DNA from: a virus
Virus record (IMG/VR): IMGVR_UViG_3300034072_000758
Coordinates: 248,001 to 312,000 of that record
Length of the DNA: 64,000 bases
Direction: 5' to 3' (one strand)
The stretch's first letter is position 1; each line of letters opens with the position of its first letter. The notes beneath the pieces are model-generated. The model did not search any database. It saw only the letters and a list, made by a program, of their open reading frames with translations, and had not been told where the DNA came from. Below, in pieces: positions 45,045-45,762 of this stretch. Position numbers and translations under genes: made by a program.

Positions 45045-45065
45045 ACGGCCCTTAAGGCCGTTTTT
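45045..45065 (+). terminator. 5' stem-loop or attenuator of the release factor gene
   Basis: ACGGCC-CTTAA-GGCCGT followed by TTTT. The predicted start of transcription falls at the base of the stem. It may end upstream transcripts or cap the release factor mRNA with a stable 5' hairpin. Confidence 0.55.
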
Positions 45066-45078
45066 ATGGAGTATCACG

Positions 45079-45762
45079 ATGAAGTATAATATCGAGATTC
45101 GCTCCGCCGAAGGTGGGAGCGATAGTCAGCTTTTCGTAGCTGATCTGGCCAATGCTTATGCCAAACTCTTCAACTCGAAGGGTTGAAAGCACCGTGTCGT
45201 AAAAGAGAGACCGAGCGACACAGGTTTCTTCGAAATCACCATAGAGGTCAATGGTGAAAATCTCAAACAATTAAAGAATGAAGCTGGTGGACACCGTATC
45301 CAACGTGTTCCACCAACGGAAAAACGTGGCCGGGTACATACCAGTACCGTAACGGTCGCGGTGATCGATGCTGACCAGACGCAGGATACTGCCGACGAAC
45401 AGTTCGAATACCGTTGGTTCTCAGGCACCGGGGCTGGTGGTCAACACCGTAACAAGCACCAGAACTGCCTAGAGCTTACACACGTCGCCACAGGCATCAA
45501 ACAGAGCGCCCACGGGCGTTGTCGAGAAAGCAACAAGCGTGAGGCTCTGGACGCCATCAGGGCGAAGCTACAGAGCCATTATGCGGGTCAGTTTGGTGTC
45601 AAGAAGAATACGGATCGTTCCAGTCAGATCGGATCGGGAATGCGCGGGGACAAGCGCCGCACATATCGTTTCCAAGATGATTCGGTGGTCGATCATGAAA
45701 CCAATAAAGCCACGTCCTGCCGGTCTCTAATGAAGGGGAAGTTTGACGAGCTTTGGTCCTAA
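45079..45762 (+). CDS. RF1-like peptide chain release factor with in-frame UGA
   Basis: ATG at 45079 with GGAG upstream. Codons 1-35 read MKYNIEIRSAEGGSD...; codon 36 (45184-45186) is TGA in the same frame, and the frame then stays open to 45762. Read through, the protein is 227 residues. It has E-I-R-S-A-E-G-G-S-D (class I factor core), GGHRIQRVPPTEKRGRVHTS with the P-x-T tripeptide of RF1 (UAA/UAG readers), and GTGAGGQHRNK with the catalytic GGQ. The usual N-terminal domain 1 is absent. The UGA sits where relatives have a conserved Trp (A-x-x-x-G-W-K/R). Alternatives: pseudogene, or expression gated by UGA decoding. Confidence 0.8.

Follow-up and report, generated by a model that had tools for sequence, protein, structure and literature searches.

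The virus record studied here carries a short release factor gene with an in-frame TGA at codon 36, and we propose, with a probability of roughly 0.7, that expression of the gene is gated by programmed UGA readthrough at this codon, with the full factor being made when UGA termination is slow. The window analyzed is a stretch of 64,000 nucleotides, bases 248001 to 312000 of a 516,805-base record, and the gene at 45079-45762 (Table 1) is the sole RF-1-domain match of that record. It starts with ATG, ends with TAA, and translates as MKYNIEIRSAEGGSD...NSKG*KHRVVKE...RVPPTEKRGRVHTS...GGQHRNKHQN..., while a plain list of open reading frames (ORFs) holds at this place only a GTG-initiated ORF of 133 residues (45361-45762). 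An earlier note on this DNA had described the in-frame TGA and offered two explanations for it, an expression gate or a pseudogene. The TGA is confirmed, and the gate is now strongly supported by conservation of the TGA, purifying selection on both sides of it, a clade-wide stem-loop, and other stop gates in relatives.

Table 1. Features of the release factor locus, in window coordinates
Feature	Position	Strand	Remarks
Putative terminator-like hairpin	45045..45065	+	ACGGCC-CTTAA-GGCCGT then Ts; directly upstream of gene; read from sequence
GGAG, probable ribosome-binding site	45068..45071	+	7 nt before ATG; read from sequence
Release factor gene	45079..45762	+	227 codons plus stop; readable only with TGA at codon 36 decoded
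In-frame TGA gate	45184..45186	+	Codon 36; Trp in homologous host RF1
Predicted stem-loop	45191..45225	+	Arms 45191-45200 and 45215-45225, 1-nt bulge; starts about 5 nt after UGA
Pro-Pro-Thr, RF1-type codon-recognition motif	45310..45318	+	Codons 78-80; invariant in 81/81
Gly-Gly-Gln catalytic motif	45436..45444	+	Codons 120-122; invariant in 81/81

With the TGA read as Trp, the product matches the Pfam PCRF (1.8e-28) and RF-1 (1.8e-15) domains, the latter with its GGQ motif, and prfA models match it at about 1e-55. The prfA equivalog cutoff is not reached (191 bits versus 400), and because the match begins only at model position 108, the product lacks domain I. Judged by its sequence, it is a short, RF1-like class I release factor consisting of domains 2 to 4. 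The Pro-Pro-Thr motif from which RF1-type specificity had been proposed is indeed present, and all of the aligned RF1-type determinants (Gln before Arg, PxT, and His-Thr) are found in the window clade, which predicts a factor specific for UAA and UAG only. An AlphaFold2 model of the product with Trp at residue 36 has a mean pLDDT of 91.9, and its best PDB matches in Foldseek are ribosome-bound RF1; as modeled, the readthrough product is a complete RF1-like fold. PrfH is likewise a short release factor homologue without domain I, but the window factor scores 50.3 bits against the TIGR03072 cutoff of 166.65, and its family keeps the PxT recognition loop.

To assess conservation of the TGA, we searched IMG/VR with peptides that excluded codon 36, which returned 239 relatives on viral contigs. 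The best 80 of these (50-57% identity) were kept, and all 80 have TGA at aligned codon 36, with no other internal stop and with the frame continuing unchanged past it, an agreement that greatly exceeds chance. A second search, seeded with a member from a Gemmobacter isolate, again gave TGA in 80/80; the two sets overlap, were seeded by similarity, and were each limited to the best 80, more distant members lying outside them. The same-site TGA also occurs in contigs of Thalassospira, Jiella, and Gemmobacter isolates, in a Sphingomonas metagenome-assembled genome (MAG), and in the closed replicons of Rhizobium leguminosarum TP16 and Bosea RAC05. Its presence in isolate contigs and closed replicons shows that it is not an assembly artifact. 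In Gemmobacter caeni DSM 21823, a possible culturable carrier, the gated gene lies within a dense tRNA array on a 447-kb isolate contig (L149).

Among 61 representatives chosen at a 90% nucleotide identity cutoff, the median dN/dS was 0.20 before the TGA, 0.17 just after it, and 0.13 towards the end of the gene. The part beyond the TGA is therefore under selection as protein in all lineages, which excludes gene decay. Stops inside genes usually do signal decay, and the earlier note had left a pseudogene open; a broken gene or a sequencing error is nonetheless hardly credible here, given that all 80 nearest relatives share the TGA without any other lesion and under strong purifying selection (dN/dS 0.13-0.20), and that independently sequenced isolate replicons carry it too. 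We accordingly discarded both. The in-frame stop is conserved and the coding sequence is constrained before and after it, as expected of programmed readthrough, and a built-in stop common to all the close relatives found has the look of a purposeful on-off switch and not of a damaged gene.

Genes of this kind are split by annotation pipelines, as in Variovorax, where replicons of about 800 kb hold a member that is more distantly related, has its UGA at codon 47 of the stretch matched, and is annotated as two genes (L349:1471-2175 and L350:1471-2175). This could be taken to mean that two separate proteins are made by restart after the stop, but relatives differ widely in where the first in-frame start after the TGA lies and in its type, with no common restart codon, and in the AlphaFold2 model the second piece would miss the first strand and helix of domain 2. 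We regard translation as two proteins as very unlikely.

We next considered which amino acid is inserted at codon 36. The earlier statement that relatives carry Trp at this position holds for an Acinetobacter RF1 and an enterobacterial-type RF1, but not for one other host RF1, which has Phe, or for gate-free phage relatives, which have Leu or Phe. A comparison of TGG and TGA among relatives, suggested in the same note, gave TGA in the 80 nearest and TGG in one member of the window clade, L148. Trp in host RF1 together with TGG in L148 makes insertion of Trp by a near-cognate tRNA-Trp the likely reading, one that is supported by homology. A UGA followed by a hairpin might also specify selenocysteine, with the hairpin as the SECIS element. 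That reading is scarcely tenable, as the aligned homologues have Trp, Phe, or Leu at site 36, with no Cys seen among them, and Rfam gave no match at E<=1.

Recoding of the whole genome does not account for the gate. Of 83 ORFs of 100 amino acids or more picked greedily in the window, 28 terminate in TGA, in agreement with the earlier note, so genome-wide use of UGA as a sense codon (code 4) is ruled out for this phage. It is likewise ruled out, over 40-kb stretches, for four phages of 630-735 kb in which TGA ends ordinary genes. A narrower possibility is that the phage itself encodes a tRNA that reads UGA and thereby switches on the gene late in infection. One phage of the same family (523,836 bp; record of L172) does have a UCA-anticodon tRNA (L321:1468-1544) and no CCA-pattern hit, and about 7 of 10 tRNA-Trp(CCA) genes of family phages (L323, L327, L328, L330, L332, and L333 among them) have A at position 24 in our numbering. 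Position 24 of tRNA-Trp is the site of the Escherichia coli Hirsh UGA suppressor. The window phage, however, has no UCA-anticodon tRNA among the 57 tRNAs called by ARAGORN in its RF00005-hit regions, which answers negatively the check for such a tRNA proposed earlier; its tRNA-Trp(CCA) has C11-G24 at positions 11-24; and TGA is a normal stop in the window. A late switch by tRNA is thus quite unlikely, and a Hirsh-type tRNA-Trp fails as a general answer, although A24 is present in many relatives. The 517-kb window phage record has 59 tRNA matches in several clusters. Genes for CUA-anticodon (amber-reading) tRNAs occur beside an RF1-like factor in the window phage (L010:2792-2865, with acceptor-stem mismatches by eye) and in a second phage (L313:2638-2712).

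The sequence 3' of the UGA was then examined for a stimulatory structure. The window hairpin by itself has a folding z of only -1.03; the window gene is a longer-insert form with a shorter hairpin, and its kin L018, L019, L023, L061, and L145 reach z values of -2.4 to -5.6. Across the 61 representatives, the mean folding z was -2.3 over positions +4 to +70, compared to -0.1 upstream and -0.2 mid-gene. In 31 of these representatives, the stretch starting at offset 8 after the UGA had a mean z of -3.5, with 77% below -2, and stretches outside the hairpin had mean z values between about -0.1 and -1.1. In the short form of the helix, alignment columns 11-30 pair with columns 53-72, with 64.6% of cells paired and changes on both sides in 15 of 19 helix pairs. 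The covariation score of the helix was 0.273 against 0.177 ± 0.013 for shuffled alignments, in a test that relatedness inflates. Sliding the helix by +1 also gave a high score (0.252), which probably means that the pairing register differs in some members; RNAalifold returned no consensus pairs from the mixed alignment. Codon 37 is biased relative to the background of the same genes, with Lys encoded by AAG in 12/12 cases and Thr by ACT in 22/25. Taken clade-wide, these predictions point to a 3' stimulatory structure of the kind associated with programmed readthrough, although the window sequence alone is not significant. Several readthrough clades other than the window clade are without a clear hairpin. 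In readthrough members outside the clade (L297, L304, L311, L349, L100, and L098), CU often follows the UGA and a clear hairpin is missing; there the UGA-CU context may replace the stem-loop.

From these observations we infer the following course of events at the window gene. A ribosome arriving at the UGA would normally be released by host RF2, leaving a fragment of 35 residues. If termination at UGA is slow, near-cognate Trp-tRNA(CCA) of host or phage would read the UGA, assisted in most clade members by the stem-loop that begins about 8 nt further on, and the complete factor of 227 residues would be made. The predicted targets of this factor are UAA and UAG, so it would take over part of the UAA termination and leave more RF2 available for UGA. 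With RF2 relieved of UAA, readthrough at the UGA would fall, and the loop would be closed even without the factor acting on UGA. That the gate senses RF2 in this way is plausible.

To place the window clade in the wider phage family, we carried out a search seeded from kin of L103, a gene of a 485-kb phage, which gave 80 loci (L233-L312). Sorting by script, with the duplicates L139-L144 excluded, assigned 54 of these to CUU-UGA +1 frameshift sites, 15 to CUU-UAG, and 2 to CUU-UAA; a further 5 have an in-frame UGA and 4 are stopless. One of the CUU-UAG genes has an additional frame change downstream. The CUU of the frameshift gates aligns to residue 36, and a Shine-Dalgarno (SD)-like sequence lies just upstream in 56 of the 71 frameshift genes. 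The contrast with the readthrough clade is thus a double one: the clade has the stem-loop, whereas its +1-frameshift relatives have the SD-like sequence without the stem-loop signal (mean z of -0.30, n = 71). Frameshift sites of the prfB type were found in the sister clade and in L148 (L148:3001-3664, from a Hahella MAG), but the window gene and its clade run in one frame. L148 lies inside the readthrough clade, yet it has a CUU-UAG +1 frameshift site at codons 41-42. In the 630-735 kb phages (L098, L099, L100, and L102), in-frame UGAs, one or two per gene, lie at other codons, and a small clade (L101, L111, and L113-L115) is gate free.

A 120-row tree built from the post-gate part of the genes united the phage factors in a single group (97), separate from the RF1 and RF2 of hosts. 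Nine of the 120 rows are gate free, five of them in one clade, and there the gate is evidently dispensable. Mapped on the tree, the gate states changed about 21 times, with UGA readthrough accounting for at least 4, counts that are approximate because this is a quick tree with many open forks. Since a gate is kept while both the device and the stop codon change, the simplest interpretation is that selection maintains a stop gate as such. An SP[T/L] motif seemed to track UAG and UAA gates (Fisher p of 0.004), but this came down to five independent pairs on supported branches, and we dropped it.

The gate turnover bears on what the gate is for. The UAG- and UAA-gated sisters have the same PPT motif as the window clade, so the family as a whole is not accounted for by sensing of RF2 alone. 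One way to cover all gates by a single rule would be a factor that reads all three stops and at high levels shuts the gate in its own gene, in the manner of RF2 and prfB. The interchange of UGA, UAG, and UAA gates among close relatives with PPT unchanged fits this logic; the RF1-type recognition residues of the window clade, which predict UAA and UAG only, argue against it, and we hold it as a minority possibility. If the factors do read all three stops, each gate would report the level of its own factor, and the family might have rebuilt its gates repeatedly because omnipotent factors limit themselves, a scenario we consider somewhat more doubtful still. Alternatively, the gate may sense nothing, with a leaky stop simply holding a factor that is toxic in excess at a low and constant dose. 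Any stop codon would serve for this, as the family shows, and ungated RF2 overexpression is harmful in Bacillus subtilis (Prince et al., PMC12421855). But a weak start site would be simpler, and the upkeep and position of the stimulators (a hairpin, or an SD plus CUU) would be left unexplained; we find a dose limiter rather unlikely. For the window clade, UGA readthrough responsive to slow termination is the reading we prefer.

The window gene can be compared with several known systems. Like the window gene, bacterial prfB has an early stop that must be bypassed, and the sister phage genes share its CUU-stop site, with an upstream SD-like sequence at the equivalent place. It differs from the window clade in encoding RF2 rather than an RF1-like factor and in shifting frame; the two halves of the window-clade genes share a frame and would be joined by readthrough. 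In a 2025 survey of 8,164 genomes, prfB gates were CUU-UGA in 98.6% and CUU-UAA in 1.4%, with UAG in none, and prfA had no such regulation (PMC12421855); sister phage genes also use UAG (0/8,164 prfB motifs). In-frame UGA readthrough for RF2 is an idea that predates the RF2 gene sequence and was never found, and the UAG/RF1 counterpart was unknown, according to a 2016 review (Atkins et al., PMC5009743). That hypothetical gene shares with the window gene an early in-frame UGA after which the frame continues; according to the review the arrangement is not found in any bacterial RF2 gene, and here it is present in phage RF1-like genes. Atkins et al. also noted an amoebal giant-virus case (PMC5009743). 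The eRF1 genes of Mimivirus, with stop readthrough and frameshifting (cited in PMC5009743 and PMC6582330), are, like the window gene, viral release factor genes whose stops are bypassed, but they involve a eukaryotic factor and virus and an unrelated protein family. The RF1 of code-4 phages (mentioned in PMC10746230) is also a phage-borne RF1-type factor linked with UGA as Trp; in the window phage, by contrast, TGA is a stop and no UCA-anticodon tRNA was found among the called tRNAs. Genes for RF1 and RF2 are already known from huge phages (PMC7162821). A search of open-access papers turned up no account of phage release factors that are gated.

An in-frame UGA readthrough architecture that was once hypothetical is thus conserved across many phages, beside sisters gated by frameshifting at UGA, UAG, or UAA. 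This suggests that termination capacity is monitored and tuned by large phages in the course of infection, and the family offers a natural comparison of two recoding devices that do one job. The carriers include culturable environmental bacteria, with Thalassospira xianhensis among the carrier isolates, which makes the proposal testable. The family is also a set of hidden genes, overlooked or divided by pipelines, and its members are possibly compact factors of unusual codon specificity.
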